NCBI GenBank assembly: GCA_946699065.1
Contig: CAMPDV010000056.1
Span: 930,001-994,000 of the forward strand
Direction of reading: 5' to 3'
DNA: 64,000 nucleotides
Origin: Loxodes magnus
Taxonomy: Eukaryota > Ciliophora > Karyorelictea > Loxodida > Loxodidae
Position numbers and translations under genes: made by a program. Numbering within the stretch: the first letter of the stretch is position 1; every line of letters starts with the position of its first letter. The notes beneath the pieces were generated by a model that was given only the letters and a program-made list of their open reading frames with translations, was not told the origin of the DNA and ran no database searches. Of this stretch, positions 25,838 through 63,356 are shown piece after piece.

Positions 25838-27106
25838 TCATACATAATATATAGCAAATTAAAAAAATTCATTTACTTTTAATGACTTCTGATTATTTCT
25901 TGGAATAACTCTAGATTATGAAAGAGGCGATCCGTATATCTCGGTATTTCTTAATTTGTTTTTAAATTCATTTTTTGGGATAGATCTTGAAATCCCAATT
26001 TTTTATAAACTACTTTATGGCTCCTCATTATTTGTATCTAATGCTTCTTCTTCATTTTCTGTTTCTGCCTTCTTCCTGTTCTTTTTCCTGTTGTTTTCTT
26101 TTTTTGGAGATTTTTCTTTCTTTTTTTCAGAAATTTCTTCTTATTTAATTTCTTACTAATGATTAGTCAGATGCTGCTAATCATCGAAGTTCTATACATT
26201 AATTTAACTTACATTTCTTAAATACGTTCAGTCAAATATAAAGTCGCAGGCTTATCCAGAAGCCATATAGAGGTTTCTGAAAATACTTTTTAAATATCCA
26301 TAATCTGGCTTATCAACGAACCTCAAACTTCTGCAATATTCCATATAATGCTAAAATTCGTTTGGAAGTCCTTTACAATAAATTGCTGGCGAGGTGCTTA
26401 ATTTAAGCTCCATTATTTTATCTTATTTTTCTTTCTTGTTAACTTACGATATTCCTTATCAAGGTAGTCTTCCTTAAACAAGGTACAATAAAACATAACC
26501 TAAAGCTTCTAAATCATCTTTACGACCTTATTCATTTCCTAAATGAGCATTTATTGCCGCATATCTTGCTGTTCCGACCATACTTTTCCCTTCTTTGTAT
26601 TTTATATGTTCAAGTGTTCTAGCATTTCTATATTTTTTCGCAAGTCCTAGGTCAATAACATAAACAAGATTAGACATTTTTCCTAATCCAATTAAAAAGT
26701 TTTCAGGTTTGATATCTCTGTGAATAAAATTTTTATTATGAACATATTCAATTCTTGCTATTAGCTAATCAGCTATCATAAGAGTTGTCTTTAGTGAACA
26801 TTTTTTACCACATGCATTATAAAGATCCTCTAGAGAAGGACCTAATAAATCCATTATCATAATATTAAAATCCCCTTCAGTGCCAGTTCAAATAACATTA
26901 GGAACGCCTATTCCTCCTTATAAAATTTTGTATAACTTAGATTCATATAACAATTATGGACATTTAGTCTTATGATTTTCTATTTTGATAGCAACTAATT
27001 CATTTTAAACTGTATCTAATCCTAAATAGACTTCTCCAAAGGATCCAAATCCTATTTTTCTTCCTACCTTGAATTAGTTATTTATTATTATTTCTTATAT
27101 TTGCAT
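25838..27106 (-). CDS. casein kinase 1 family protein kinase
   Basis: A CK1-type Ser/Thr kinase of 422 residues in a single exon. Visible are the Gly-rich loop [15 protein letters not shown], the catalytic Lys of [19 protein letters not shown], the CK1 hallmark [21 protein letters not shown] (relatives have GTARYASINTHLG) and [20 protein letters not shown]. The Trp of LPWQG, invariant in CK1, is a TGA codon. The metal-binding motif reads DLGLAKKY where DFG is usual. After the kinase domain (to about residue 295) comes a Lys/Glu/Gln-rich tail with [19 protein letters not shown], perhaps a nuclear or centrosomal localisation segment. The start ATG is at 27104-27106; the end is TGA 25838-25840. 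Confidence 0.92.
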
Positions 27107-29391: not shown

Positions 29392-30966
29392 TCAGATACT
29401 CTCAGAATCAAAATATTGAAGAATTTCATCAGAAGTTGGTGTATTATCGTAATTTGGATTTTTATAAACAAAGTTCTTAATATTTTATCCTTCAAACAGA
29501 ATTTATTCGCTACTACTAGGCTACATTTCATTTATATTCCACTTACTTGCTATATTTGCAATCTAATCTTCTTAATCTTGTATTTATTCTACTTTAGAAA
29601 GCTCTTCATTCTATTCTAGGGATTTTTGAGTAGAAAAAATTTTTAAATTAGGAGAGGAAGGATCAATAGAGTTTAAAGTAATAGACCGTTGACTTTCACT
29701 TTAAAGTATGTCAATATCTTTCGAAACAATTTGGTTAGTTTCATTAATTTCAATTAAAGTTACTTACCTTTATTACTATTCTGTCTCTTAAGATCCCTAA
29801 GATTGTTGCTTCTAAATTTCATTTAAAAGAGGCTCTAGTTCAAATGAAGTATCTTTAGATTGTGTTTTCTATTTGCTTTGTTGTTATTGATCAAATTTAG
29901 TAATCAGAGGCTTAGGTCTATTTAAATTAGCATTAGAAAAATACCTTTCTTTTTTAGGAGAACTGTCTAATTATATTTAAACTACTTTGTTATGCAGCTT
30001 AACTACAATTTGATTTACATCAGTTTCCTATATGTTATATCCCATTTTTTCTAGCTATTTAAGAAGCATTTTTCCTCTATTTCTTGTCTAATTTTCATTT
30101 CTTCCTTCAATAAAACTTGCAATTAATGCTCATTTTTTTTAACCTAACTCTTTAAACTTTGATAGAAGTATTAAATCTTCCTCAATAGATCATACAGTTT
30201 TCTTGAGAGTGGGATCTAAATGATTGTTCCAACGTTCGCGAACATTCTTTCCATTTCTAACATTTTATCCATGATGAATCTCTTTATTAATAACATCTCT
30301 CAGTACGTGTCATTTTATTGTTGGTTTTTCCATCTTTAGCTTTAAGAAAAGTTCATCTTCTTTTTCAGTTCATTTTTTCTGTGCGACAAATCGATTTGAA
30401 TTGTTATAAACAGTTTAATTTCTTTAAGGTCGGATCACTATGTTTCCACTTGAATTTGATCTCTTTTTTTTCTTTTTTTTATACTTTCCCACAGTAGACT
30501 CTTTGTTGGTCTTGTCTATTTTTTACTCCAGATCCTTTAGATTAATTCAGTTCAATTATTTTCTGTTTTTTTATTACTTTTAAATTAATGAACTTTTTTT
30601 ATAATTTGACCAGTAATTATTTTATTTGATCTCTATCTCTGTTTCTAAGAACTCCTATTGATTCAACTTTTCTGGAATATTCACTACATTTTTGAATGAG
30701 TTAGTAGCATCTTCCTCCTTTATCTTCTAGATAATATCAGTTATCGAAAACATTGAATCTGATCTTTTTAGCACTTATTTTTAGAGATTAATTTCCTTCT
30801 ATAACTAATTTTTATCACTAGTACTCGCTGCTTTAGTAATGAACCTCTTCTTATAAATAGGATTTTTAGTTTCTCAATTGTTTTGAGTTTCGTTATTGAT
30901 AGAAGGTTCATTAAGTTGATTCTTAAAAGATTCCTTGGCCATTTAGTTAAACTCCTTAGTATTCAT
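29392..30966 (-). CDS. two-repeat Myb-type DNA-binding protein
   Basis: Likely a transcription factor or chromatin-binding protein; 524 residues, single exon. Two Myb repeats occupy about residues 193-305: KKWTEKEDELFLKL, then HVLRDVIN, then RERWNNHLDP; and VWSIEEDLILLSKFKELG, then KKWALIASFIEGR. The second repeat ends NQTRNRGKMLLKQ, where NRWN-like text is usual. Of the conserved Trp, four are TGA (KKWTEK, IKWHV, TVWSI, KKWAL) and RERW is TGG. This is strong evidence for TGA as Trp, while TGA 29392-29394 ends the gene. The N terminus is charged and Lys-rich (KYKKKKKKRSN, a likely nuclear signal); the C terminus is Gln/Ser-rich and acidic, like an activation region. Confidence 0.9.
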
Positions 30967-33265
30967 TATTATATAATCTTTATTCCTGTTAATATTTAGC
31001 ACTAAAAGTGTTTAAATACTGTGAATAATGGCTTATTAATTCATTTATACCATAGAATTCAAGCTTTAAATACGAGACCTATCTTATATCTTTCATCTAT
31101 TGAGTTTAATCAAAAGTCTCATTGATTAGTATGCATTCATAGTAAGATATCAATACCAATATTATCAGAAATTTTGACTTTCTTAGTAATCAAAAAAGAA
31201 CTGATATACACTTTAATAAACTTGCTAATTAAAACTCCTAAAATGTGCTAAAAAATAGCTTGGAAGTACTTAAAATAATAAAGCAAGCGTCTTTAATAAA
31301 CTGTAAATAGCTTAATTACGTGTAAAGATGCTCATAACTAAACCTTACTAACTGTTTCATATAAAATATAGTAGTTATTACAATAAATTAAATAATTAAG
31401 GATATTGAGCTAACTAACTCTTCATTTCCATTAGTTTAGATTAATCAACTATAACTTTAACTTTCATCTTCACTATGAAAGAGAAGAGGCTTATTTATCT
31501 AGTTGGCATTTATATATATATGTTTCTAATCTATAAGGGAAGTTAAATAAACTGTTTAGACAGATATTACAGTCTAAGATACTTTAAGTAGTTAAGAACT
31601 CAATATAATTAAATAATTGTGAGAATAATAGTTATTGCTTAAGAGATACAAGTAGCACATTTAAAATATGTAAATATTTAGCTAGAAAGGAAAAAGCATT
31701 TCTAGATTTCGTTTATCTAATAAAAGTTCCAAGAAAGAAGTAAACTTTAAGATAAGTTGCAATTATATAATTAAGCTAATGTGAGTTAAATTGTTACCTT
31801 GCAACTAGATAATCTATTCCATCTGAAGTTACTCAACTTACCTCTATAATAAGAAGAATATAACTTATTACTTAAAAACTAACCTTACAAAGAATATATT
31901 TATAAGCAACATATATGCTCATTTTACTCTCTTGATCAAATCTAATATTCTTATTATAGTTTAAAACGGAGACATTGGGAACTTAATGGTACCGTTTGAA
32001 AGCAAATTAGTATAAGATAGAAAGAATTAAAATTTAAAGGGGTATATATTATCTACTTTCCCTTTAACTAGTATGCCTACAATAAAGATAAGCATTGTAA
32101 ATACTAGATAATAAAAGGCTTTATAAAATAATCAATTATATGTTTATACGCTATAATTTAGTTTTACTACTAGTTATTCACTATGAACACATAGGATAAA
32201 TAGATAAATCTACTTATTAGTAAAGCATAATAACTGATTTCTATATAAATGAGAAGCATTTCCTTATTAGGATTATATCCTCAGTTAATATAACTGTCAA
32301 AAGCAGAACTTGTATAGATTTGTAGTGATAAATGTGACTAAATAATTAATAATTCTTATTTAATAGTCTTAATGTATTGTAATCATATCGATAGTTTTAA
32401 ACTTGCTTTAGAAAATATTGCAAATTAAATTTATTATATTTATAGAATGCTTATTTAAATGAAAGGCAGTGCTTATTCTAACATGACTTAAAGGAATGTT
32501 ATTGAATGAAGGTCGAATTGAAGAAGAAATGATTAATAGCCAGTTTTAAAAATTACTATAGATAACTGGAATAATTAGCTGAGATTATATATTTGAAGCA
32601 TTGCTAAATTAACTAGAGTTAGATATAAGTTTGAAGGATTGGAAATTATAGAATTGATTGGAATAATTAATTAAATGATTTCTAACTAAGATAGATTTTA
32701 AATAGTCTAAAATAGCCATTAATATAAGTTAACACATCTTAAATATATGAGTTTATTCCAGATTTTGTCTTTATTTGATTGAATATAGCAACTAATTTAA
32801 TAGCAATAGTCTTAAGTTAGACTAGTATAAAATAAAGTATTCATTCTATAATTTCTGAAGGTAATGAAGGAAATAAGAAAATATAAGAAGGCTATCTTTT
32901 AATTATAATATTTATAAGAAGGATGAGATCTTTTTACTTTGGTCTAACTTAGTTTTTACATAGTATTTATACAAGATATGGAAAATACAATCTATTTATC
33001 TTGCTTAAAAACTAGTGTAATCATATATTGAAACTTTAGTAGATTATTATTAATAGTCATTAACTAAAATTATAATAGTAGTTACTTAAAACTTAAGGAA
33101 TTAGAATCTATTGTGGAAGGTAAAGAAAGCTTTTATATCTTTTTATAATAATTTTGTTTATTAAAATTGATTGAGTGAAAATAGAAGTTGCTGGTGGATG
33201 AAGAGTATTCAGATTATTAATTAGAAGATATTAATTAATTTAAATAAAAAACTATAATCACATTA
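30967..33265. other. AT-rich spacer
   Basis: No gene, RNA or repeat is recognised. Confidence 0.5.
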
Positions 33266-34722
33266 TCATACATTTACGCATACAAGCCTTACAACAGATC
33301 CACTACTGTAATATTAAATTACTTTTTGATAGGTTGAATCTTCACTATCTTGATAATCATCTGAATTTAGATTAAGACTTGGAATGATCTAGTTCATGTT
33401 TCTCTTACGATTCTAATTCATTATTTATACTACCTTTTATTATATTTTCTACTCCTGGTTTTGAACATTTTCTGTGGTACGTTCGCATTAATGTACACTT
33501 TCTCTAAAGCTTTACAATTAAGTCTAACAGTTAAGAGAAGATTATTCTAGATTTAAATGCTTGATCTAATTGAATTTTATTTAGGGGTTTATTCCTACAT
33601 TTTAGGTAGATATGTTCTAAATTTGAATCTCTTCTATTTTAAGAGTAACAGCGTTTGCAGTATTATCTTAAACTTGACTCCTTTGATGGAAAGACTATTT
33701 CATAGGATATGTCTTTCCTTAAGTATCGTTGAAAAAAGAGGAACTTTCTTCAGTCATTACCATTAATAGCGAGTTCTTTACTTACTCACTTTAACTTTCA
33801 ATCTTAAAATTTGAAAGATCTTAATCTGAAAAAAGATGACTAGATTTCGAGGATAAATGGGAAGGCTTTGATTAAAACTCCGAGGAAGATTTGGATAAAT
33901 TCATTTCAAGAGATTACTTATTGAAGTGCTTTGCTTTAATATTGTGAAGTGAAAATTTTCTGAACTTAGATTCTTTTGAGTTCTTTCTTATTCCCTTTTC
34001 TTATTAAAACTCTTCAATTTACCAGCTCTAAAATAAAAAATTACTCCTATAGATGAGTTGCTTAGTTCATTAGACATTAGTTCTCTTTGTATTTATTACT
34101 CAAGTGCTCCAGAAATCTTATTATGATTTTTTTAATTTTGCTTAAGTTACTGAATCACTTACTTTAAATATTAAAATTGCTTTTCTTATTATTGATTTAC
34201 CTTTCTAATGCCTAACCCTTAGTTTGTATAAAATACTCCTTCATTTATCTTTTCAGTGCTAAGAATATGACTATCTTCTTCCTCAGGAATCTATTAACTA
34301 TTATCTGAAAATTTAAACCTTGGAGTAGAACTCATTGACTTATTTTACGCTAGTGGGTTCTTTCTTTCTTCCTTTTGCTAGTCTTGCCTCTAATTAAGTT
34401 CTTTTTAGATTACATTTTCAGTTTATTAATTTGAAAAGCTATGAACATTCAGTTCCCCACCAGCTTCAGTACTTTAGATTGCTTGAAATTCTTAACTCTT
34501 ATCAGAAGGCAATTAAGGTTAAGCGATTTTAATCAATTTTTAAAAATTTTCCTCTTGAGATTTAATTTCATAATTCTACGAGACGCATCTTCTTGAAGTA
34601 TGGATATTAGGATGTTGTCAACGTCTCTTGGAAAGTTCAGATAAGGATTCATTTAGGTTTTTGAGAGTAGAAGGAGTATTAATTCGAGAAGACAATGGGG
34701 CTTTTGAAAAATCTGTCTCCAT
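33266..34722 (-). CDS. Ser/Gln-rich protein with a short coiled coil, unknown function
   Basis: No family is recognised. ATG 34720-34722 opens METDFSKAPLSSRIN. A 17-nt intron at 34028-34044 (GTAATTTTTTATTTTAG on the coding strand) restores one frame to TGA 33266-33268, giving 479 residues (1,440 coding nt). Without the intron the reading falls into a poor frame, so splicing is well supported. The protein is mostly low-complexity: Ser, Gln and Glu clusters, a helical stretch around residue 200 (QQQEKQFQYLKQVIQQLKQN), and a polar C terminus with NLNSDDYQDSEDSTY. Many SP and TP sites fit a phosphoregulated scaffold, but that is inference. Composition is clearly not spacer-like. Confidence 0.75.
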
Positions 34723-36746
34723 GAGATAAAAGTTATGAATTATGCTTTTAATTTAATTTATTTATTTACCAAATTAACTATCCACTTCTACCTTATCAAT
34801 TGCAACACCTTTTTCTATCCATTCTATAAATACTACCTTTATTAGTTATTTCTTATTAAGCATGAGGTGCTTTACATGGAGTATGCATTTGGAAATAGTT
34901 TTATAGAGCTAGGATTTAATAGTAAAGTTAATGGGATTATAAGGAATACTAGTAATCTATTATATTATATGCTTAAATTACCTAATTAATCATCTTCAAT
35001 TTATACCCTTTTTATCATATTAAGCTATTAAATTAGCAACTAACTTAGTTTGGTATTTCTATGCTGCTTACCAAACTTAAAGTCTTGCTTATTCAATTAG
35101 AGAGTGAATGCTAAGATTTAGTAAAGTATTATATGGAATTGGTAAGATTTAAAATTAATTAATAAAAGTACTAGCTTTTAAAAGGCAATGCTAGCAGATT
35201 AATGACAACAGAGCTATAAATGCTTAAGCCTTAGCGAATCTAAACTTTATAATTTTCATCTATTAAAGAAAGTTAAACTTAAGTCAATATCTTTACCTTT
35301 ATTAGTAGTTTATGATAATGCTATCTTATGTCTTTTTACCCAAAATTTGAATATTAAGAGGATTCTAAGAATAAAATAAAGGTTGAAAGAATAGTATTTT
35401 AAGATAGATATTCTTTAAATCTATAATTCAGGTTTATTATAGTTTGATTTTATAAGCTACTGTTTATATATCTCTAACATTCCTAATGAGCATGATTTAA
35501 TATAAAGTATCTTATAGGCTAATTTAAGGTAACTAGTATAGTAGAAGTATAATATGTATATATTTTATTTTATAAATAATAACTTAAAGTACAAGAATAA
35601 AACTAATCTTGAATGGTCCAAAGATCTAGAAATAACTTGTTCAGCTTACTAACTAAGTAAAGGATATTAAGTATAAAGGAATTAATATAATAGAGCTTTT
35701 ATTTTAATCAGTTTAGATTAAAATAAGAAATCAGAAGAAGCTTTATAATCTAAATATTATTATCTCTCTGTTAAGCCTCTTTTGTTAATATGCAATATAA
35801 GTTTTGCTTTTGATCAAACATATGCTACTAATATAAAGGAGATTGATAGTTAGTATAGTTTATTAGAATTTAATAATAAGAGACGTATTATAAGTATCTG
35901 TCTGATTTAAATAGTTTTTACATTACTAGCATCTTAATAGACTAACTTTATTTAACAGCTTCTATACAATTTGCTAGCTTTTGTAACGTATTGCATTGAA
36001 GAAAAACTAAGCAGAAGCTTGTAGAGTATCTCTAAGTAATTATCAAGACTATTTCTATAATTGATGCTTGAAGTAAATATCAGCAGGGATTTTCAACAGT
36101 AAAAGGAATTCTTTTAAATCTGCAAACCACACTAAAGTTTACATTAAAAGAGCATTCCATTCAAAAGCAGATATAATATATTATTAATAATCTTAAATAA
36201 TTACTATAGACATAACACTAAAATAGTAAAAAATATAATCATATTTTCATTAAAAAATGCAAATAAACTAAAATTAAGCATAGTAAGAAATTAAGGAATC
36301 AGATGCTCTTAAACTAATTTTCCTTTTATATTCATTAATAAAAATATTAGCACTAGTTGTCTAACATATTGAGAGTATTTTTGATTATAAGCTAGTATAA
36401 CAAAGAGTAAGTTAGCATATTTAATATCTAGCATTAGTTAGAACTACTAACTATTTTAAATTAGCAGCTTATAATTTATTTTGGAAGGTTAACAATCTAT
36501 CAGCTTGATCTATTTCTTAATCTTCTAATAAATTTTAAGAACTTTGGTTAAACTGAGTTTATATAAGCTAGCTATTAAATATTAGCCTGCCTATCTGACT
36601 ATCTGTATATAAATAAAATTTATTCTATAAGTACTAATATTTTAGGCTATTTCTGTATTGATAGTTGAATAAATGCTTCTTCAAGCTTTTAATATTTTAA
36701 CTTTCATAAATCCTGAAAAAAATCTAGTTATAAACATTAATGAAGA
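34723..36746. other. AT-rich spacer
   Basis: No feature is recognised. If the TPX2-motif gene starts at 37344, as its composition allows, this spacer extends to there. Confidence 0.45.
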
Positions 36747-38340
36747 ATGATTTTTGAAAAGCTAGGATTATAAATTAGATTGAAAGAGCGAAATCTATTT
36801 AATTTTATAAAAGAGACATTTCTAATAGCCATAAATAGTAGAATAGCTAAATTGTTTCTATCTCTTCAATATTCAGAAAGAAACAATTTTAAACTTTGTA
36901 TGGATACCTATAAAAGCAAGGTATACATCTAAATAGCTATAATTAATATATCAGTAGCATTATAGAAAAGACAACTAAGCTATCAAATATATTTAGCTAT
37001 TTCTCATTTTATAATCTTCTTCAAAGCTATTTTATTAAGATCAAAGCTATTAACTTTCAATTATTTAATTATAAAGTTCTTATATTTAATAGCCAGAAAG
37101 TATTGGTATAAAAAAAGGAGATAATAGGATAGAAAGAAATAAGAATTAGAATAGATTGATTCAAATAAGTTTCTGTAGAGGTTTGAATTAAATTAGAATA
37201 GATTTATAGGATTACCATATATAAAAGCACTTTTAAATTTCTTAATTAAATATTTAAAAATCCTAAAGAGGAATTTAGAGGGAATTTATGATGCTTAAAA
37301 ACCTATTAAGAAAAGACTGTTCAACTCGAATATATCTATTAATATGTTTCCAAATGCTCAGAGTGCAAATTAATCAGCAGCTAAAAGTGTTCCTGCTTTC
37401 TGCTTTAATAAATAAAAGGTATAAAATACTTAGGCTTTTTAAATGGGAACTAAAAGTTCCTAGTAAAATGACTTAAAGATCTAATTAACCAATTTAAAGT
37501 AAAGTCCTATTTAAAATATTTAAGAAACTAGAGTTAGAAAAGCTCTTAAGCCTATACGTCCTTTTCCAGATTAAAAGCCTCCATCTGGCTTAAAATGCAC
37601 AAGAGGATAAAATAAAGTTTAAGCTATATCTAATTAAAAGGTATTTTAAGATTAAAGTTTAATAGTATAAAAAGCAGCTACTCAGGAATCTAATCTATAA
37701 TGCTCTAAAGAAAATTCCTTTTCTAGAGCTAATTTATCTTTTGAAAGTCAGCCATTTAACTATTAATTTAAGGCTAAGCCTATGCCTAATTTTGAGAACC
37801 ATTTTAAGCCTTTTCCCTTAAATTAGTAGCCAACTACTCCAATAGATTTTGTTTTAAATAGCGAAAGAAGAGCTTAATAAAGAGTAGAATAGCATTAGCA
37901 GATTATGAAGGTAAAGGAAGAAAAGCTTTAATTTTAAGAAATGATAGCAAAGTAATAAAAAGATGCTGAAGAACTTTAATTATAGAAAATTAGAGAACTA
38001 ACTATATTTCATGCTTCTCCTGTTAGATCATATAAAAATATTGAAATCAATAGGAGCTAGAAAGAATTAACTATTCCTTAAGCTCCTTTGCTAAGAACTT
38101 AACTTCGTGCTCAACAAAACAATGAACAAGTCAATGAAGTCAAGCAAATATAATCCAAAAAAAACTAGCTAGATAGGATCAGAACTATCGATAAAGAAAT
38201 GGACAACGAAGATGGTATTTTTGGAAATATGGAAGTAGAGCAATATTTTAACAATTTTTATGATTATCAAGCTTATTACCACAATGTACAATAATCAACT
38301 TTTCCTAATATTTTGTAAATCTTTTTATTTGTTTAGATGA
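36747..38340 (+). CDS. TPX2-motif microtubule-associated protein
   Basis: Related to the C-terminal microtubule-binding repeats of TPX2 and plant WVD2/MAP20 proteins. Two repeats are visible: FKAKPMPNFENHFKPFP, then TTPIDFVLNSERRAQQRVEQ (residues about 342-380); and FHASPVRSYKNIEI, then KELTIPQAPLLRTQLRAQQ (about 421-460). They match the K-A-x-P and T-x-P-x-F-x-L-x-[ST]-E-x-R-A pattern. A coiled coil (KVKEEKLQFQEMIAKQQKDAEEL) lies between. The frame from ATG 36747 has no TGA over 520 codons. A 22-nt intron at 38315-38336 places TGA at 38338-38340 just after QSTFPNIL. The first 200 codons are hydrophobic and AT-rich, so the true start may be ATG 37344 (MFPNAQSANQSAAKS). Confidence 0.85.
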
Positions 38341-40020
38341 TATTTTAAAAAGAAATATCATATTAATTATTTTTAAGTATTCACTTTTATTTCTTTAATA
38401 CTCCAAAATTTCCTTTTATTAACTATAATCCAATAATTTAACTAACTGTTCCTAGTGTAAAAATCTTACCATTAGAAAGACTATTTTAAGTATCAAAAAG
38501 CAATTACAACTAGCTAAACACCAAAATTTTAGCGATCATTAATATAGCTTTTTTAATGCTTTACTAGTTCCTCAAAAATTAGCAATTATCTTCTATTTAC
38601 TAATGCTAAAACTAGTAGAGGCTGTAATGTTATTTACTTAATGTTTTGACTTATTAAGTTTCTTTTTAAATATTTTAAGTGTAAGATATACAATTTAAGG
38701 ATTATAAGCCTTTTAATTTAAATTATCCTATTAACTAATGATTTAAGAATAATAAAAGTAACTATACAAAACCAATTTAATATCCTTATCTTAAAACTAG
38801 GCTTTTATTTAAAGTTACTAAATACAATGTTTGTATCATTAGATTCTAACATTTTATACATAAAAGAAAGGAGAAAAATAAAGATTTGTTTATACTTTTA
38901 AGTGAATATTTATAATTTACTTCAATGATTACACTCCAATCGTATTTAAATAACTAATTTATAGTAATTTAAATGTCAGATTCTAGATAAACTATATGCT
39001 TTTAGAAAGGGTTATAATTGAAATATGTAGAACCTTAGAAATAAATAGAATAGTTATTTGTCTAAATTATCTTTTTTGATAGCTTTAAATTAACTTATAG
39101 AAGGTAAAAAGTTTAATGATGCTCATTTAAGCATGAATTTCTATTAAAATAAATTAGAGCATTCGAAAAATTTTTTCTATAGATCAAGGATATAATAATT
39201 AATTAAAAAGTCTAAGTTGGAGTATTTATATTTATAAATCCAAATATCTCACAAAAAGTTAATGGCAAGAAAATTTGAGATTATAGAAAGTGAGAAAGCA
39301 AAAAAGGAAGAAATTAAAGATGAGAAGTAAATAAGAGGATATGGCCAAAAGTGAGGAGGTTAAGAAAAGATTAAAAGCAAATTATAAATATTAACTAAGT
39401 CTATATTTGAAGGAAACAATTCTTGCAATTAAATAAGTCAAAAAACTCTTTTAGTTTAAATTAAGTTAAATTATCTATTATATTTCCTTATAGTAAAAAA
39501 GTATCAAATCTAGAAGTAGATTAGGATAGTATTCCATCTTATCATCATTATAATCCAAAAAATAAAAATAGTAATTTTAATATCTAATAAGGTTCAAAGT
39601 TTTCAACTCAGATTCTTACTTTACATCTACATTTTTCCTTAGTAACTTTCTTAGCTAAAGAAATAAGTTATGCCTTCATATTATAAAATATGAACTGAGG
39701 AACTTTAATAATTATTAATTTAAAATAAAAGCATTGTATCTGTAAATAAATATAAGCAAATCCATTTAATAAATGATGTGCTATTATTATCAATACTATT
39801 CAAATATTATAGATTTGCTATCAAGTTTAGTTAAATTGCTTATTTATTTTCGTTCATAGTTAATAAATAAATTTGATTATAGAGTGCGTAGCACTCTCGT
39901 TGGTGCGCAGCTCTTAAAAAAAATGTTTCATACTGACAAGAATGTTTGTTACTGATAAAATTATCAGATAATGATAAAAATGTTCAATACTGATATAATT
40001 TTAGAATACTCGTAATCTTT
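38341..40020. other. AT-rich spacer carrying hairpin repeat copy 2
   Basis: Nothing recognised except the dispersed hairpin repeat at 39861-39915. Confidence 0.5.
39861..39915 (-). repeat. GC-rich hairpin repeat, copy 2 (inverted)
   Basis: The reverse complement of this stretch matches the repeat at 807-862 over about 50 bp, with small changes in the arms (GAGTGCG for GAGCGCG, and two added bases near the loop). The arms can still pair, partly through G-T pairs. This suggests selection on structure, or a mobile element with terminal symmetry. Confidence 0.75.
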
Positions 40021-40026
40021 AATACT

Positions 40027-40325
40027 TGCTGGAGGTCCAAGGACATGGCAGGATTGCGTCTCATTGCATCACCAAAGCAGAGGACGACATGTGTCAATTA
40101 TGGGTACTTAAATTCCCCACATCTGATGAAGCTCGCAATATTATTTCTTTTTCGTTCCAGAATTAAATCCAAGTTAAGCCAGTGCCGAAGGTCTAAGAAT
40201 CTTATGTCTCGAGGCCAAACCAGAGCAGAGGAAGACATAAAGTCGATTATGGGTACTTAACTTCCCCAACCTCTGATGAAGATGACCTTGTTGTTCACCT
40301 TCGAACAACTATGGCGATTTTAAAA
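40027..40325 (+). ncRNA. GC-rich island of two diverged ~148-bp tandem units, possible structured RNA
   Basis: This stretch is far richer in G and C than anything nearby. It consists of two diverged units of about 148 bp. The best-conserved cores are 40077-40131 and 40225-40281, both running from GCAGAGGA through TTATGGGTACTTAA to CTGATGAAG. They differ by two single-base indels, which break any common reading frame and argue against coding. CTGATGA joins a box-D-like CTGA and box-C-like TGATGA. The second unit ends in a perfect 7-bp hairpin (GTTGTTC at 40290-40296 with GAACAAC at 40303-40309). A snoRNA-like or other structured RNA, or remnants of an inserted GC-rich sequence, are possible. 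Confidence 0.45.
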
Positions 40326-40605
40326 AATAATATAATAAAAATATTTATCTAATAGGAAACACTTTAAGAAAATAGGCTTCTTGTCTTATAACCTTCTGTA
40401 TTCTGTATTTTTAATCTTTATACCTCTTAAAACATCTATCATTTCTTTTAAACCTCTCTATTTGCTCTCTTATTTTCCTTTATTAAGAATATAATTCCAT
40501 AATAGAACCTACTATCTTCAAGCAGTTTGCCTAAATAACCAATAATGGAGAGTATATAATAATAATTATTATTAATTAAAGTGATACCACCTTTCATTAG
40601 GATCA

Positions 40606-41295
40606 TCACTGATATAATGTTTATAAATGTAAAAAAAAAGTATTCTGGATATATTCTTCATAGTCTTCTTCTGTCTTATGCTTCATTATTACATATCGAC
40701 TATTACTTTTTTCTCCAGGTTTTATTATAGGGATTTGGTTAAAATCTAGTTCTTTTCCAATTATTTACTCTAGTTCTTTTCCAATTATTTACTAGGGTCT
40801 AAATCATATATTTTCTTCAGGTCCGATTTACTAATTTTTTACGTTTGTTATCTTAAGTCTATAAATTTTACCCTCTTGAGCAGCATACAATCTGCTTAAT
40901 TTATTCAGTGTTTTTTAAATTCTTTTATTCTCTTCATTTTGTTTATTTTAATATTTCCAGCATTGTCTTACAAAATGACCAGGTTTTCTGCAGAACTAGC
41001 ATTTAGGTTTTTCCTTCATTCTATTTCTTTTTGCCGGTTGAATTGCTGGCTCTATATCCATAGGATCGTTGTGAGAGAGATTTTTTAGAAACAGACTCTC
41101 AGTAATCTCAGCGAATTAGTTTAATTTTTCTTCTGTCTGCTTGATTCTCTAGTTAAATTCTAATAACTAAGGATGATTGGTGAGTTCAGTCTTGTAGTTA
41201 CTATATAGTATAATTAAGAATAAATAGCAAGCATATTTAATAAAGTAACATATAAAAGAAAGAGTAACTAAAGCAGACAATAACAAAAGAAGCAT
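40606..41295 (-). CDS. CCHC zinc-knuckle protein with N-terminal membrane segment
   Basis: The 229-residue frame opens with a hydrophobic segment (MLLLLLSALVTLSFICYFIK), then a polar coiled region. At about residues 109-122 it has a zinc knuckle CQFCRKPGHFVRQC, the C-x2-C-x4-H-x4-C form that binds single-stranded nucleic acid in retroelement Gag and in cellular proteins. A small duplication follows (QIIGKELE, QIIGKELD), made by two adjacent 24-bp units at about 40749-40797. It ends with two consecutive TGA codons (40606-40608, then 40603-40605), consistent with secure termination where TGA alone is ambiguous. No protease or reverse transcriptase is nearby. The start at 41293-41295 is less sure than the knuckle. 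Confidence 0.7.
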
Positions 41296-41588
41296 TTGAA
41301 ACGATTAGCTTAATTTTATATTTACATTATATAATTAAAGCTTTACATCTTAAGAATGCTAAGTTGCTTGTATAGAGATAATAAATCAATAGAAACCACT
41401 GATAGTAATAATTAAGTTTACTTTATTGAATTAATTATAAGGTTAGAAATTCTAAAATTAGTTTAATTGAAAATGAAAAGTGTTGGAAGTGTATGATATG
41501 CATAACTCCTTCATTTATAGGTAGAAAATAGATATTTACTTTAAATTAAATAGTGACTAATATAAGCAAAGTAGTATTTTAGATATAT

Positions 41589-43313
41589 ATGAAATCAATA
41601 TTTTTACTTCTGTTTTTTAATTTTTGCTTGAGTAAGATAAAGATTGGACTTACTCCTTGATCTCCTTTGACTTATTGCGATCCCTTACCTTTTAGTATGC
41701 AACCTTTTTCTAAAGATATCCAGTAATAATGAATAGGATGATCGCCGGACATGTGACGTTAAATTAGTGTTTTAATGGGGATGGAAAAATATGATTGAGA
41801 TTTCTATTGTGTTGAAATATCTAATTTGAGTATGCTAGTAGCATAGGGCTAAATTGATTTTTCAGTATCAGGTGCCATTATTAATCATTAAACTTTTTAG
41901 ACTTACAGTATAATTTATCCAGACTACAATGCAGGCTTTAAACTTTTGGTTAGAACTAAAGAATACCCTGACTATCTTAAAATTTTTACTGTAATGGATA
42001 TAAGAATCTGGCTTTTATTAATGAGTTATAGTTGCATTTGTGGAATTCTGGTATGATGTTTTGAATCGATGTTCCTTTTAAAGCAAAAGGTATAATACCA
42101 AGATATTAGTGATTATGTTTATCATTTCTATAGTTGCATTTTCTAAATGCCCTTCAAAATAACTTTTTAGTTTTCAAGTAGACTCATTCAATTTGGATTC
42201 TGGTTTGTAGCACTTGTTATTATATAAGCTTACATTTCAGAACTAACAGTTCATTTATCTCAAAAGCAACTGACTCCAGAATATCATAATTTAAGAGATA
42301 TAGAGTAATAAGGAGGGAAAGTACTGACAGTAAGTGAAACACTTAAGTTTCTGAATATTTCCTTTGGAAGTGTTAATTGAGTTACCTTTAACATCGATAT
42401 CTTTTAGCAAAATATTACAGAAACTAGATAATTTCTATTCCAATAACTTACTTCTAGATCTGTCGATGGAATAATGGTTGACCAACCACTGGCTGAGTAC
42501 ATGGCTGCGACTGATTGTTCAATAATTGCAGTAGGAAATGTAGAAATTCCAATTTTTTACGCTTATACATTCAGTAAAAGTTTTGATATACAGATGAGCT
42601 AATAAATAATGGAAAACTAATACAAACTGAAATATTACAGCATTTCTAGGCAACTTTATTAAAAATACATCCAAAATGAAAGAAATTAGTGCCATATTGT
42701 TAAAACTGACTCTTGGAATATAAAAAGCTTCTTAGGAAGCTTTTTAATTATTATATCTGCCTTGATAGCTTCAATTCTAATCTAATTTTTCCAATTTTCT
42801 TATAAATCATGCAAAAGGAGAAAATAGATATCTGCTGAAAAATCGAATTAAGTGGAATGAATGTAAGAAGATAAATCATAGAAATCTCAAAACTATTAAG
42901 CTTAGGATGAAGTATGAACTTTTAAGAAGGAAGAAGAAATTTCATTTTAAGCAGAAAATATTCCTTTTAAAGAGTTAGCCAAATAAATTAATAAGAAGCA
43001 TTTATAAGAATTTTATGCATTATATGATGAAATCCATAAACACTTAAAGAACTGTTATATCGATAATAATGATAATGAAGCTGAAACAATCAACAACTCA
43101 TTAATAGGTTAAACCCTTTAGTTGTAATTCTTTTTATCTAATATAAACCAAACTATCAATAACTCTATAAGACTTCTAATCTATTACTACCACATTTCTC
43201 ACTTATCACTTACATTATTTACTATCTCAAGTGTAAATAATATTATATAAATAGATAGATCTAAGAATCTAGTTAATCGATAAATTAAATAACTTAGCCT
43301 GTAGAATGCGTGA
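41589..43313 (+). CDS. ionotropic glutamate receptor-like channel lacking the amino-terminal domain
   Basis: A ligand-gated channel with eukaryotic iGluR order. A signal peptide (MKSIFLLLFFNFCLS) leads directly into ligand-binding half S1 (IGLTPWSP, GWSPDMWRQISVLMG, IDFSVSGAIINHQTF, IIYPDYNAGFKLLVRT). Then come M1 (about 136-157), the pore loop and M3 (about 180-222, ending AYISELTVHLS where SYTANLAAF is usual), S2 (SVDGIMVDQPLAEYM, IFYAYTFSKSF) and M4 (about 380-403). A cytoplasmic basic and acidic tail follows. The usual 400-residue amino-terminal domain is absent. About nine Trp codons are TGA, several at alignable positions. The first TGA not explained as Trp is 43311-43313; the low-complexity last 80 residues may be overextended. 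Divergent from the zinc-knuckle gene, 293 bp apart. Confidence 0.87.
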
Positions 43314-43423
43314 TATTGAAGGCTATAAAACAAATTGCATATAATAGGCATTTGATTCTGAATTATTAAAGAGCTTATAGGTTTAAATTAAGATGCATAG
43401 TTCATAGAATAATATTTTATTTA

Positions 43424-43993
43424 ATGTAAACTACTAAGTCTGTTATTTTCGTATGTCTTGGGAATATTAATAGAAGTGCTATTGCTGAAGCTTTACTTCG
43501 CATTCATGCTCCTAATATAAAAGTTAAAAGTGCCGGAACAGGTGGACACTTCACAGGTTTATCCGCTAGCTAAGGAATGATATCATCTGCAAAAAAGAAG
43601 AACATTGATCTTTCATATCACAGAGCAAAATAAATAACATAGAATGATTTCGAAGAATTTAATTTAGTAATTGCAATGGATAGTGATAATTTTGAAGATT
43701 TGCTATCAATAGCTCCTAAAAGTTAAGCTCATAAGTTAAAGTTATTCTTACCAACATATGCTCCACATTTAAATATATAAGACACACCTGATCCTTACTA
43801 CGAAGGAAACTATTCAGAAGTAATAGAGATTGTGGAAGAAGGAATTAAAGGATTGATTACAAAAGAAAATCTAAGCATAATACATTCTAAACTTTAATAT
43901 TATTAAATAATATAGGAAATAAACTATTCCGGCTATTTATTTAAGATTCATTAAAATATAGACCAATTGCCTCTTTTATACTAATTGAATTGA
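43424..43993 (+). CDS. low-molecular-weight protein tyrosine phosphatase
   Basis: A small cytosolic acid phosphatase acting on phosphotyrosine. ATG 43424 gives MQTTKSVIFVCLGNINRSAIAEALL; the P-loop CLGNINRS fits C-x5-R-S, with Asn in place of the second Cys of animal CLGNICRS. SAGTGG, AMDSDNFEDLL and the general-acid motif DTPDPYYEG are all present. The family normally ends after the last helix, here IKGLITKENLSIIHSKL at about residue 157. The frame instead continues through TAA and TAG codons to TGA 43991-43993, adding about 32 residues of AT-rich sequence. Either the protein has an extra tail, or TAA at 43898-43900 stops translation, or a small intron lies near the end. Confidence 0.9.
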
Positions 43994-45247
43994 TTTAAAA
44001 AATAGTTAAACTATAAAGTTAGTTGTTCTCCTTTTGAGTTAATTAAAAATAAAAGCTTATATGTAAGAAGCAAATCTTTAATTCAATTTATTAATTCCCA
44101 AGTTTCATACTTTTTAGCGTTTTGCTTGATTCTACTAAATTAGCAAAATAAAGTTCTTAATACAATCATTTATATCCTTTAGTATATTACTTTTTACTAA
44201 AGCATAGACTCAATATGATGTTATGAACATAATCATAGTTTTAATTTATAAGCTAAAAATAAGGAATAAAAAGGAGGTACTAAGCTAAAGTTCTATAAAA
44301 TAGTTTCAAAAAGACTTAAGAATGTAAAAAGTTATGATAAAGTAGTCTTACTATTTTAGATGCTAGCTACATCTATATTATATCTAATTAAATACTTATA
44401 TGCATTTCATTTTATTGTATATCAAAACTAAAAATATATCTTTAGTTTTAACTTTAAGTTCTCATCTAACTGTATTATCATATTAAATCAGCTTAGGCTA
44501 AAAATACACTTTAAAATTATTTGGTTAAAACCAGTCTTAACACATATGTTTACTTTTTCTTCTGCTTCAAGACTAGTGCAACACTTAAGGGAATCAGCAT
44601 AATTTATTAGCCTATAGAAAATTAGCTATTTTGTTTCAATCTTAGCCTAAATAATTACTAAGCATATTAAAAGTCATAAAGATAGATAGTGACCATTTAA
44701 TAGCATAAGAGATAATACTTTTACAATAATACTAATAATGCTTTTAACACTTGACTCATTATTCTACTTATTGCTAAAAACCACCTGCACTCTCTCACAG
44801 ATAAATAATAAATCTCTTTTCCTTTACAAAGGCACTCTATTAATAGCTTTAATAGAAGGATTAGTAAGGGATGATAAGTAATTTATGCTCTCATTACTCT
44901 TTAAGAGATTTTCTTAAAAAGAGATTAAATATGAGGCAATTAGATGAGAAAGTAGTTAATGTTTAAGAAAGTAAAATGTATGATTAAAATAAATTAGAAT
45001 GCTATATTTACGTTTAAGAATAACACTATCTATTTATTAGTACTAAAGCACTTTATTCATTTACTTCTTTAACAGTCTTCAGTTTGGAAGTAAATATACA
45101 GATGTGAGTTGATGAAGATTTTGAGTGACTTAAGAATATGAATAAGAAGCTTTTTTATGTACTATATTGCTTAATGAATGATTAGAGAATTAAATTAAAT
45201 GATGACGATTTTTTGTGTCATTTAACTATTGATAATTAGACATTAAA
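43994..45247. other. AT-rich spacer
   Basis: No feature is recognised. Confidence 0.5.
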
Positions 45248-46487
45248 ATGGGGAATTGCAATTTCAAAACTGATAACTTTGATCCTACAGTAGGTACTTT
45301 TTAATGCAGAAATAAGTAAAAGTCAATTCAATTTTAACTATGTAATAGGTAAAGGAGGATTCGGTAAAGTGTGAAAAGTAGAAAAGAAAAAGGATTGTAT
45401 AATATATGCTATGAAAGAAATGAGTAAAGCTAGAATTATTGCTAAAAGATCAGTTAATTCAGTTATGAACGAAAGGAAACTACTTGCTATGCTTAGACAT
45501 CCGTTTTTAGTTAATATGCATTTTGCCTTTTAAGATAGAGAAAATTTAAATCTTGTAATGGATCTTCTAACTGGAGGAGATTTAAGATATCATCTTGGTC
45601 GTTAGCGACATTTTAGCGAAGATCAAACTAGTAAGTGCTAATATAGAATTTTTTGTAGCTTGCATTATTATAGGGCTTGAGTATTTGCATACAAATGGTA
45701 TCTTACATAGAGATATTAAGCCTGAAAATTTAGTTTTAGATTTGCGAGGATATTTAAGGATAACTGATCTTGGAATTGCAAGAATTTGAAATCCTGAAAA
45801 TGCTTAAGATACTTCAGGCACTCCTGGCTATATGGCGCCTGAGGTAATGTGTAGATAAAATCATGGAGTAGCTGCAGACTATTATGCTGTTGGAGTAATA
45901 TGCTATGAATTTATGACTGGAAAAGTAAGTCTTTATATAGAGACCGTATACTGGGAAGAGTAGAAAAGAAATTAGAGACTAAATTTTGGCTCGTTAAGTC
46001 TAATTGAAAAGACATGAAATTCCGGAAGGATGGAGTTTAGAAGCAGCGGATTTTATAAATAAGGTATCTAATCATACAGCTAATTTAAAGAAAGCCTGTA
46101 AATAGATTAGGTTTAAATGGTCCCATAGAAGTAAAGACTCATATATGACTAAGAAATTACCCTTGATAAAAACTCCTTGAAAAATAAATAGAGCCAGGAT
46201 ATGTTCCAAATTCAAAGGAAGATAACTTTGACTTAAGATAAGTAAAATAAGATTTATGAAAAGAATAAAATGAAGAGCTTCTTAAACAAAATAGTTTGCT
46301 ACTTCGAAGAAATTCGGTTCAAGCTTTATTTAATGGTTATTATTATGAAGCAAGCAACTAGAAGTAAGAGAAAAACTAATTAAAAACTTAGAATCTAACA
46401 AAAAGTCTATCATTTGCTTAGTAATAAAACTCTGCTGTTGAACTCCAAATTTAGAAATCACTTCCTATATCATCTTTAGAAGTTTGA
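45248..46487 (+). CDS. AGC-type Ser/Thr kinase with myristoylation motif, five exons
   Basis: Four 16-nt introns (45294-45309, 45631-45646, 45925-45940, 46064-46079) join into 391 residues; each restores a conserved kinase segment. MGNC at the N terminus fits N-myristoylation with a palmitoylation Cys. The domain shows [15 protein letters not shown], catalytic Lys in [21 protein letters not shown] in place of DFG (ITDLGIARI), [10 protein letters not shown] and the AGC-like [13 protein letters not shown], then WLRNYPWQKLLEKQIEPGYVP. Trp in GKVW, IARIW, HIWL and YPW is TGA. The C-terminal tail is Gln/Asn-rich without the classical FxxF motif. It suits a membrane-tethered PKA/PKG-like or calcium-responsive kinase; its activator is not evident. 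Confidence 0.92.
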
Positions 46488-47450
46488 TAATTAATAGCTT
46501 TAACTTTTACCATTTAATTTTCCACTCTTTTTCCTTAATTTGCTTTTTTTTGGACTTTTTAAGCATAAATTAAAAAATGCACCATATTAATTTCCAAGAT
46601 AAATGTTATTTTAAGACCAAAAAAGTAGTTTAAACAATGACTTATTTAATATAAGACGCTACATAAAATAGATTTACTAAGACATCAAAAGAAAGAGCAA
46701 TAAATGAAAAGCAGTTTTATTATAGTTCTAATATCTTCTAAGGTAAGAAAAAGTAAGCATTAAGTTATCTACTTCAAAAATTAATTTCTATTAATGCTAA
46801 AACCTTTAATCAATCTATGCTAGCTAGATCAAATTATTTTTAATGCATAGTTATTTAGTATTGTATTGTATAAATGCCAAGTAATATGGTTCATAAAAAT
46901 ATACTACAGTGTTAAACTATTTCAATTGTCTTTTTTTTTTATCATTTCTATAGGAATTAAAAAATTTTAAGCTTCCATATAGATTAAAAAATCTAGAATG
47001 TAAAGGATATATAATTGAAGCCATTTTCTTTTTTATGTACTGACTAGAGATAGCTGGTTTTATATTTCTATTGTAATTACGTAGTTAAATATTAATATAA
47101 TAGATATAGATAAATTAAAAATAAGCTGCATATTTAAATACTAACCAAGCTTTATGTCAGCATTATTTTATTATACTTCTTCTAGTTTCATTCTTTCTAT
47201 TAAATTCTTTCCTTTATTTCTAAATCTCGTGGTTATGCATCTTAAGTTTTAGCTTTATGATAATTGCTATTTAAATTAGTTCTCTTTAATTGAAATATCT
47301 TATTGATGATATTCAAAAATAATTAGGAAGCTTCTATTTTATTTAGTTGTAAGTATAAATTTATGCTCTAAGTTTGATATTTAGAAAATACTTAGCTATA
47401 CAAATGAAAATGATGCTATTATTGAAAAGAGGACAGATTATTTGTAGTAT
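46488..47450. other. AT-rich spacer
   Basis: No feature is recognised between the kinase and the ABC transporter. Confidence 0.5.
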
Positions 47451-50350
47451 TCATTTGGTTATTTTAAAACTCGTTAATGAAGAAAGGAAAGTTAAGAAAG
47501 ATGGAAATTAATTGAGAGTTTTTACTTAATTGGTTCCGCTTTTCTCTTTGAAAGAGTTATTTACAGTTATAAAAACATCTTCAAGAGTCGCGTTAGAAAA
47601 TGTCCATTCCATAATGAGGTTTTTTATTTTCTAGTTTTCATTTGTTTCAAGAATCTAGCAGAATTAAATTCCTAAGTCTAAATATTCTTAAGGTAAAATA
47701 AAAATAACGCTTCCTGCATTTTTGTCAAGTATATTCACACATGGCATTAGGGTGCTTACTTCTTAAATTAGCTAATCTACTTAATCAGGTTATGTAACTA
47801 AATGAAAACGATAGAATTTGCAAATTGTATTTTTGAGAGATAATGAAGTGCCAATACATTAAACTTACCCAGATGCAATTACTGCTATTCGATCAGACAA
47901 AACATCAGCTTCCTCCATAGAATGAGTAGTTAGAATTACTGTTCTATTCTTCTTTAACTACTAAATTAATTCTCATACTTATCTTTTTTACTTAGGGTCC
48001 ATTCCTGTTGTAGGTTCATCCAAAAACAGTACTTTAGGATTTCCAACACAACTAATGGCAACTGAAAGTCTTCTCTTCATTCCACCTGAAAAGGTTCTTG
48101 ATTTCTTATTAGTTACATGTGATAAGCCTACTTAGTTTAACAGCTCACTTATTTTTTGATTTAATTACTCTTTGGATATGTCCAGATTTTTAATTTTTGC
48201 AAAGAGATATAAATGTTCATAAGCAGTAAGTTCATCTCATAGTATATCATGCTAGGGACAATATCCAATAATACTTCTTAACTTTTAGATTTCAAAAGCG
48301 TTTTTGTGAATTAGGCAGTCAAACACTTTGGCATATCCTTCTGTAGGATCTAGAAGTCCAGTTAAAATTCCTATTAGCGTAGTTTTACCAGCTCCATTCT
48401 ATCCAAGTAAGCCTAAGCATTCATTATCTTTAATTTATAAATAAGCAGATTAAAGGGCTTATACATCACTTGAGGATTTTCATAGATATTTCATATAAGT
48501 TTTTGAAAGATTCACTAAACGAATGCCCTTAAATTAAAAGGCATTATCAGAATTCTCGTTTGCAATTATGTTACTTTTTTCATGCTCAACTGATACAAAA
48601 GATATAGGTGAAAAGCTATCCATTTGAATATTTTGAACCATGTTTTAATAAGTTTATCCTCTCTTACAATTTAACCCTCAATAGCTTGGTGTCAAAAAGA
48701 AGTAATAAGGGCTGTATTATATCTTACTATGATCGGCCCCCTCTATTATGTGCTATTATATGATCGAAGTACCATAGTAGAACCAAAAAAATGAATGCAT
48801 CCATAAGTATAAAGCCTACACTTGTAAAATCAGAAGGTACATCGTAATCAATTCCTGCCCAGTTAATTGAACCAGTTTTACTATTAACAAAGTCTGAGTA
48901 CTAATAACCATCACCTTTAACCTTTCTTTATTCATCTTAATCATAATGATTACAAGCTTCAGCTCCTATATTCTTAATTATTTTAGAAAAGTGAAAAGGA
49001 GGATAAAAGGAAAAAAAAGTTCTTATAGTGATTCCTCATTCTGGAATATTATTGGAGTAAATGAAAAGAAATAGAAACTAATCTGACATAAATGATTCTA
49101 AAACTAAGCCAACTAAAACAAAGGCAAAACTTAGTGCATATGCTACTTTTGTATTTTCTACCATACTACTAAGACAAAAAGCTAAGCAAGTCATACTGAA
49201 ACCAAAAGCAAAGAACAAATAAATTTAAATCCTAAATTAAAACTTACGGAAGGGGAGAGTTTTTAAATCAATCCATTTAGAAAGCTCAACCAAAAAAGCT
49301 TAATATGCATGACAAAATTAAACAGAAAATAAAAGCAGCAAATATCCAGCTGAGTCAAAAGGGAAATTATCTCATTCCCATTACAATCATTCCTGTTCGT
49401 TACTTATTTTCTTTTTCTCGGACTACTTCTGTGAGAAAAATTACAAAAACAGCTATATAAGGCATAAAAAAATAAAAAGGACCAAAATCTCCTACTACAT
49501 CGGAATCTTGTACATAACGATTAGGAAGAATAGGATAAGATTGCTATTCAGCATTTATTCAAAGTTTTTTCCTTTTTGAATTGGAATTAAATTTATTCTA
49601 TACAGAACTCTGATAATCAATTATTCCATTATCAACTGCTATTTTAACGGCTAAAGTTTATGGATCTGTGAAAACAGGTTTGTTAAAACTTCTAATGAAA
49701 CTCCGAATTTCTATAAGAGAAGCGTTATATAGTAATGTGTAGACATATAAATTAAAAGTTTTATCTTCAGTTTAGCAAGGTAAGTTTACAGTAAACACAT
49801 CTTGGATTTAAATTTACCAATCATTTGTACAAAAGAGGACTCCTGTCTATATTTTTCTAGGGTTATTTTGCAAATAATTAAGATATCCTGATGTATTCGC
49901 GCTTAATAGTTTTATATCTTTGTTCAATTTTAAATTATAACTTTCACCTAAATATCTTATCACATGAGTAGCCCATTCTTATTAACCATTTGAGAAACCT
50001 ATTCCTATTGTTATGCAATCATCATCCAGAAATTCATTTCTGGAGCATTTATTAATTTAAGTTAGATCGTGTATAGTTGTATCCGTATCTTTATGTTGAA
50101 ATTTTCCATATACAACTTTTTGAAGTAAGAGCAAATATAAAAGAACTAAAACCGGACTTAAAAGTATCGAAAGTGAGAGTTTCAAATTTCTTTTGAAAAA
50201 AAGGAAATTTTTTCAAAGTAAAATTCTAAACTAAACTCAGAAGATAATGCAATAGTTTTCTTTTTTATCCTTTTGCTTTATCTTTAAATCCTTATCTTAG
50301 TGATTTGAATCATCAACACTAAATTCTTTTAACTCCTCACCAGTTTACAT
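47451..50350 (-). CDS. ABCA-type half transporter, three exons
   Basis: An ABC transporter of 955 residues with one membrane domain followed by one nucleotide-binding domain in ABCA order. A first helix ([20 protein letters not shown]) is followed by a large extracytoplasmic loop, then helices such as [16 protein letters not shown] and [18 protein letters not shown], and FFLTPSYWGLN before the ATPase. The ATPase shows Walker A GQNGAGKTT (Gln is TAG), Q-loop GYCPQHDIL (Gln is TAG), signature [10 protein letters not shown], Walker [13 protein letters not shown] and H-loop TTHSMEEAD. Two 16-nt introns (48712-48727 and 49232-49247) join the frames; the coding total is 2,868 nt. About ten Trp are TGA. 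The last 20 residues before TGA 47451-47453 extend past the usual ABCA end. Probable role is lipid export. Confidence 0.93.
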
Positions 50351-61952: not shown

Positions 61953-62948
61953 ATGAAAGCTTTAGTTCTTAATAAAAATAGATAAATTGAATTAAAAACA
62001 GATGTTTAACTTCCAAAGCCTGAGTCAGGATAAGTTGTTGTTTAAGTGCATTATGCTCCTATAAACCCATCTGATTTACTGTTTTTGAAGGGTCATTATA
62101 ATACAGCTTATCTTCAAAAAACTAAACCTTTACCAACAATACCAGGCTTTGAAGGATCAGGAGTTGTTATAAGTGAAGGGAAAATATTCAAAAAAGGAAC
62201 AAATGTTTGCTTTTTAGCTTCTAAAGATAGCTATTATGGATCATGGGGAGAATTTACAGTTGTTAACGAAAAAAACTGTATTGATGTTGGTGATTTAAGT
62301 TTAGATTAAGCGGCTTGCGGATTTGTTAATCCATTATGCGTGCTCTATATGCTGAATCTAGCTCTTAAAGCTAAAGCTCAATATGTAATCCAAACAGCTG
62401 CAGCTTCTCAATTAGGTCGTATGTTTATCAGAATTGCTAAGTAGTATAATATTGGAACTATAAATATTGTTAGATCTTCTAAGATTTAAGAATAGCTTTC
62501 GACTCAGGAAGAAGCTAAATATGTACTTAATTCCTCTCACCCTGATTTCGAGAGTGATCTATAATAATTATGTGAAAGCAAGGATATTCACATAGCTTTT
62601 GACGCAATCGGAGGTTCTATGACTAAGATTCTAGCTAAAAACATTCAGCCAAATTCTGAAATTTATGTTTTTGGAGCTTTAGAAGCAAAACCTTGCCAAG
62701 TTTAATAATCAGACTTGATTTTTAGAAATATCATAATAAAAGGTTTATGGGTTTATAAATGGATGGAGTAAGCAGGCCACTACGATTTTATAGGAAATCT
62801 GCCTAATTTACTTAAGAAATAACTTCGTAGCGAGATTAAGTCAAAAATTCCACCAGAATAAGCTAATGCTGCTTTTGATTAATATTAGGCTAGCATGAGC
62901 TCAGGAAAAGTGCTTCTTAGTTTTAATCAAACAAAAGCAAAGCTATGA
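61953..62948 (+). CDS. zinc-free MDR oxidoreductase (quinone oxidoreductase / enoyl reductase type)
   Basis: An NADPH-dependent reductase of the medium-chain dehydrogenase family; 331 residues, single exon. The N-terminal GroES-like part has VQVHYAPINPSDLLFLKGHY and PTIPGFEGSGVV, as in quinone oxidoreductases and mitochondrial enoyl reductases. Zinc ligands of alcohol dehydrogenases are absent. The cofactor fold has IQTAAASQLGRMFIRIAKQY, the A-A-x-S-x-x-G form typical of zinc-free members, then AFDAIGGSMT and EIYVFGAL. The C terminus SSGKVLLSFNQ matches the family's GK.vL. Gln is often TAA or TAG and no internal TGA is found. Which substrate it reduces cannot be told. Confidence 0.92.
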
Positions 62949-63356
62949 CAATACTTAACTAATATAAATAACTTATTTCTCTTGCTTACTTATTTACTTT
63001 TATAATTATATAAGGTACTTTATTTCTTCTCTATTTAAGTAATAACTCATAATTTAGACTGTAAACTTATAATTAGTTATTTAAAGTACCTTAATAGACA
63101 TAATAAGCATAGTAAAGCTTATTAACGAATAAAATAAAAGTCTATATTTTGGGGATCTTAAACCAAAATTTGTGATCACTTAAATATTAATTTGCCAGAC
63201 ACTTTTAATAATTTCCTTTCTGCAACTCAATTTATATTATAAATTTCTTATAACCAATTTCGCTTAGAGCAGACATTAATTATAAGCAATTAATGAGTTT
63301 TGAAAATAATAAAGGAGTGCAATGTCCCATTTTAGTTAAATATTTATTCACGAATA
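62949..63356. other. AT-rich spacer
   Basis: No feature is recognised. Confidence 0.5.

Follow-up and report, generated by a model that had tools for sequence, protein, structure and literature searches.

A stretch of DNA in which TGA lies inside conserved reading frames and also closes them raises the question of how one codon could serve as tryptophan and as stop in the same genes, and of what TAA and TAG then encode. The window, by which the whole analysed stretch of 64,000 nucleotides is meant, comprises positions 930001-994000 of contig CAMPDV010000056.1 of Loxodes magnus (GCA_946699065.1), and the genome that holds it consists of 7843 contigs with 705,730,643 bases in all. Loxodes belongs to the karyorelict ciliates, and Seah 2022 is reportedly a further earlier paper on its code. 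The excerpted text of PMC11441545 gives the L. magnus MAC assembly as 706 Mbp, assigns it NCBI table 27, in which TAA and TAG encode glutamine, and names UGA as the only stop codon and also as a tryptophan codon. The reading favoured here, with a rough probability of 0.95, is that the window belongs to the macronuclear genome of this karyorelict and is translated by table 27. UAA and UAG would be read as glutamine, UGA in the gene body would be decoded as tryptophan and UGA close to the mRNA 3' end would act as stop, its meaning being set by proximity to the tail and not by a sequence motif. The poly(A) proximity model is found in the excerpts of Swart 2016 (PMC4967479), an earlier paper on ambiguous stop codes. 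The code seen in the window is the karyorelict ambiguous code already published for the L. magnus genome and is not novel; a preliminary description of this DNA, which had suggested a code of karyorelict type in which termination depends on context, is borne out, the codon evidence agreeing with table 27.

The following genes of the window were used:

21319..23478, plus strand: CEP104 (Pfam CEP104_N, TOG and ZnF), with an internal TGA at 21415 that was not aligned.
25838..27106, minus strand: casein kinase 1 (CK1; structure alignment), with sense TGAs whose first bases are 26890, 26461 and 26230.
29392..30966, minus strand: Myb gene (Pfam Myb; structure alignment), with sense TGAs on Myb-repeat tryptophans at 30372, 30312, 30192 and 30132 and further in-frame TGAs outside the aligned domain at 30876 and 30549.
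41646..42551, plus strand: part of a glutamate-receptor-like ion channel (Pfam Lig_chan, E 1e-8).
43451..43993, plus strand: low-molecular-weight phosphotyrosine phosphatase (LMWPTP; Pfam, structure alignment).
45348..46487, plus strand: part of an AGC-type kinase, modelled with three inferred 16-nt introns (45631-45646, 45925-45940 and 46064-46079) and, in the spliced model, sense TGAs at 45372, 45787, 46146, 46164 and 46257.
47451..48662, minus strand: ABCA-type nucleotide-binding domain (Pfam ABC_tran; alignment to ABCA3/ABCA4), with in-frame sense TGAs at 48482, 48239 and 47975, a TAG in Walker A (48401-48399) and a TAG in the Q-loop (48254-48252).
49370..50122, minus strand: upstream membrane part (sub-threshold Pfam match) with one in-frame TGA at 49561, presumably belonging to the same transporter as the preceding domain.
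61953..62948, plus strand: zinc-type dehydrogenase/reductase (ADH) without internal TGA.

Table 27 translations of four proteins were aligned to solved structures, one chain being used per protein. Eight of the nine aligned TGAs fell on tryptophan and the remaining one on phenylalanine (p ~1e-14, against a background of 11 tryptophans among 804 aligned residues). All three TGAs of CK1 and all four aligned TGAs of Myb met a tryptophan, and of the two aligned in the ABC domain one met tryptophan and one phenylalanine; one of the three TGAs of the ABC domain and two of the six of Myb were left unaligned, and LMWPTP contains no TGA. The 37 aligned TAA and TAG codons lay on glutamine in 10 cases (p ~2e-6) and on other residues in 27, glutamine being the commonest single residue for TAA and likewise for TAG. 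The preliminary description had placed internal TGA at conserved tryptophans and had read TAA and TAG as glutamine, and both statements agree with these alignments. It had also put TAA or TAG at catalytic glutamines of the transporter, which is right for the Q-loop, where TAG stands for a conserved glutamine, but not for Walker A, where TAG occupies a variable position that is histidine in a relative. Among loci fetched from the same genome, all 16 matches to the kinase DxWS pattern, several of them mutual paralogues, have TGG (12) or TGA (4) as the codon of the invariant tryptophan. A frame control on 15 of 20 scanned segments, those with a Pfam match (one of them sub-threshold), found 32 in-frame TGAs in 4722 codons, the two alternative frames containing 62 and 195. 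These data indicate that UGA is read as tryptophan inside genes and UAA and UAG as glutamine.

From the output of an intron-aware gene finder, which fused adjacent genes and failed to recover CK1 and the ABC gene, only the model of the AGC kinase was used. With the inferred introns removed, the TGA at 46164 falls on tryptophan, those at 46146 and 45372 fall on phenylalanine, that at 45787 falls on no tryptophan and that at 46257 lies beyond the alignment; because of the same introns the TGA at 46015, one of the 32 counted above, comes to lie out of frame. The glutamate-receptor-like gene contributes a count, seven in-frame TGAs in 302 codons. When introns are left in place, this gene shows no in-frame TGA up to 50 codons from its coding signal. 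One further point of the preliminary description had to be corrected: CK1, which it had located within 29392-50350, lies outside at 25838-27106.

Repeated DNA also occurs in the window. Positions 9340-10804 form a 1.5-kb interspersed duplicate with 94% identity to positions 1-1468 of a locus upstream on the same contig (L009), and positions 39862-40337, coding-like in several frames, are an interspersed repeat with 87% identity to L009:8566-9077. Short pieces of the latter recur at 806-858 and in L010, and positions 796-864 also match L012. The minus-strand frame at 40654-41136 carries what we take to be a CCHC zinc-knuckle-like motif; a Pfam search of this frame gave no match, and it is perhaps a retroelement remnant. 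Within the gene of a TPR protein, a unit of 84 nt (28 codons) occurs as a tandem pair at 15834-16005. The dehydrogenase 3' end together with downstream DNA (62660-63300) is duplicated in L014:1750-2356 at 69% identity with a decayed frame, and this degraded duplicate was set aside as evidence for the end of the dehydrogenase gene.

The use of TGA as a stop was approached through the ends of the same genes, for which the following terminal codons were assigned:

23476-23478, plus strand: stop TGA of CEP104, the structure alignment reaching to 3 codons before it.
25840-25838, minus strand: probable stop TGA of CK1.
29394-29392, minus strand: probable stop TGA of Myb.
46485-46487, plus strand: probable stop TGA of the AGC kinase.
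47453-47451, minus strand: probable stop TGA of the ABC gene.
62946-62948, plus strand: stop TGA of ADH, relatives aligning to about 8 codons before it, near their own C-termini.

Each of the four probable stops (AGC kinase, Myb, CK1 and ABC) is the TGA met first in frame beyond the coding signal, located with a coding score that counted TGA against coding. The CEP104 structure is that of a construct, so the end of its alignment is no proof of a natural C-terminus. The TPX2 gene, with introns likewise left in, has no in-frame TGA up to 50 codons from its coding signal.

Paralogues offered a more direct view of gene ends. The ends came from 12 kinase loci, paralogues being chosen by an all-against-all comparison that served this purpose alone; ends were not reached in L005, in L025 and in the first kinases of L020 and L026, and the ends of the latter two loci were taken from other genes. 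TGA was found at nine of the ten compared ends, in six directly and in three once an inferred intron is allowed for. The calcium-dependent-type kinase paralogues L001, L003 and L006 are similar up to the TGA and diverge beyond it, and other kinases (L004, L007 and L023) likewise agree until the TGA and diverge thereafter. In L020 and L026 the agreement extends to the TGA if a putative intron of 17 or 18 nt is spliced out, and L027 has a matching end and TGA in another frame, for which an inferred intron is needed. The excerpts of PMC11441545 report an intron length mode of 17 nt in L. magnus, with 93% of introns no longer than 25 nt. The tenth end, that of L022, is ambiguous: its first in-frame TGA comes 223 codons on, and with an inferred intron of 25 nt removed a TGA would fall where the coding signal fades. 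Both meanings occur within single genes, as had been claimed at the outset: L007 has TGA at the DxWS tryptophan and again at its end, and L023 carries a terminal TGA and an internal TGA at a kinase tryptophan that is TGG in L004 and L007.

A statistical comparison of coding ends was made over 260,145 bases. It left out nine of the 98 segments for their closeness to a sequence end, gave the three stop codons a neutral value in the coding score and sought codons from -3 to +11 codons around each end. TGA was present in frame near 39 of 89 coding ends versus 39 of 178 off frame (p 2e-4), whereas TAA (49/89 versus 96/178) and TAG (15/89 versus 37/178) showed no such excess. In the window alone, in-frame TGA was present at 14 of 25 coding ends versus 8 and 7 of 25 off frame. 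In a cruder ranking of all codons at coding ends CTG and GAG came ahead of TGA; a finer, posterior placement of ends by codon statistics alone gave 2.6 observed TGAs versus 2.5 expected. That placement lacked the resolution to identify the terminating codon, and the in-frame versus off-frame test was used instead of it and of the ranking. The paralogue ends and the in-frame enrichment at the 89 coding ends point to UGA as the stop codon, and probably the only one, with the end of LMWPTP unexplained and that of L022 ambiguous. As judged from DNA, the alignments and the gene ends together establish what the codons mean, that single genes hold UGA in both senses, and that TGA, rather than TAA or TAG, is used at gene ends.

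The LMWPTP gene does not fit this pattern. Its homology to relatives ends at 43861-43867 and the coding signal is over by 43867 as well, but every frame is free of TGA from 43855 to 43985, and the first in-frame TGA, at 43991, comes 41 codons on (introns not removed), after an in-frame TAA at 43895. The 123 nt before the TGA at 43991 are UTR-like, with a GC content of 0.20 and a coding score of -6.4, and resemble the DNA behind other stops. Such an end would be explained either by a stop at the TAA or by 41 residues of random extension, and LMWPTP is a weak candidate for a UAA stop. UAA would then not be a pure sense codon in L. magnus but would end translation near the poly(A) tail in a minority of genes, and table 27 would be incomplete here. 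The scarcity of UAA before true stops, both in the present genes and in the published data excerpted from PMC11441545, would suit this possibility. Nevertheless, it rests on the sequence of one gene, TAA shows no excess at the 89 coding ends, nine of the ten paralogue-compared ends are TGA and the excerpts of PMC11441545 call UGA the only stop. Additional UAA stops are considered unlikely, and because of the general evidence on the code a random extension or an assembly fault is favoured for the LMWPTP end.

A separate question is what could mark a TGA as stop. Nine gene ends were compared with 13 homology-aligned internal TGAs; among the ends, Myb was placed by its coding boundary alone and CEP104 by homology ending 3 codons short. 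Over the 60 nt that follow the codon, GC content averaged 0.18 at the stops versus 0.30 at the sense TGAs. The AT-rich DNA that the preliminary description had noted behind terminal TGAs is therefore real on average, but the ranges (0.13-0.22 for stops, 0.22-0.37 for sense TGAs) overlap at 0.22, one sense TGA having a downstream GC content as low as the highest stops. The AT-richer DNA after stops could be taken to mean that a local signal beside the codon, and not the distance to the poly(A) tail, marks TGA as stop. Apart from the overlap in GC, the +4 base gives no separation, stops being followed by T, A or C and sense TGAs by any of the four bases, and a necessary motif is rejected for ambiguous codes in the excerpts of Swart 2016 (PMC4967479), with evidence from Condylostoma. 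A local signal is thus held to be very improbable. Published values excerpted from PMC11441545, a GC content of 33.5% in coding DNA versus 18.6% in 3' UTRs and a short 3' UTR (median 41 nt, from transcripts), describe the surroundings of L. magnus stops.

The codons that precede the nine stops were also counted. In this small sample of partly paralogous genes, TAA accounted for 2 of the 180 codons nearest the stops (the last 20 of each gene) and for 35 of the 720 upstream of these (two-sided p 0.02); the corresponding counts for TAG were 6 of 180 and 11 of 720. TGA was absent from the last 20 codons (0/180) and equally from those further up (0/720). In the roughly 20 codons before L. magnus stops, according to the excerpts of PMC11441545, UGA and UAA are depleted and UAG is not; the scarcity of UAA seen here, not shared by UAG, agrees with this published pattern. 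The idea that internal TGAs are never translated, being removed by introns or editing or belonging to pseudogenes or assembly errors, can draw on the inferred short introns and on the displaced TGA at 46015, but is hardly credible when most tested TGAs lie exactly on conserved tryptophans with homology unbroken on both sides and TGG and TGA exchange at the same residue between paralogues.

Among known codes, karyorelict table 27 (Loxodes, Parduczia) shares with the window UAA and UAG as glutamine, UGA as tryptophan within genes and as stop at their ends, and AT-rich DNA after the stop; no difference was found except for the one unexplained gene end of LMWPTP. The code of Condylostoma magnum has stop codons of context-dependent meaning as well, but in the excerpts of PMC4967479 all three codons also terminate, whereas here TGA alone of the three is enriched at ends. 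Common use of UAA and UAG as stops in the manner of Condylostoma does not appear to apply, rare use being possible. The Blastocrithidia nonstop code resembles the present one in that three stop codons are reassigned and one is also a stop; there UAR encodes glutamate and UAA is the stop, whereas here UAR aligns most often to glutamine and the stop is TGA. Searches of the window for tRNAs and against Rfam found none, and the tRNA search of 28 loci returned one tRNA-Phe only. A tRNA-Trp with a four-base-pair anticodon stem has been identified in Loxodes according to the excerpts of a 2026 paper (PMC13092985).

CK1, Myb and the AGC kinase in the window, with paralogue sets elsewhere in the genome, serve as clean worked examples, and one gene end, that of LMWPTP, is at odds with the pattern. 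A code without a dedicated stop codon is a test of how ribosomes separate sense from stop, and its importance is already established for Loxodes and its relatives.
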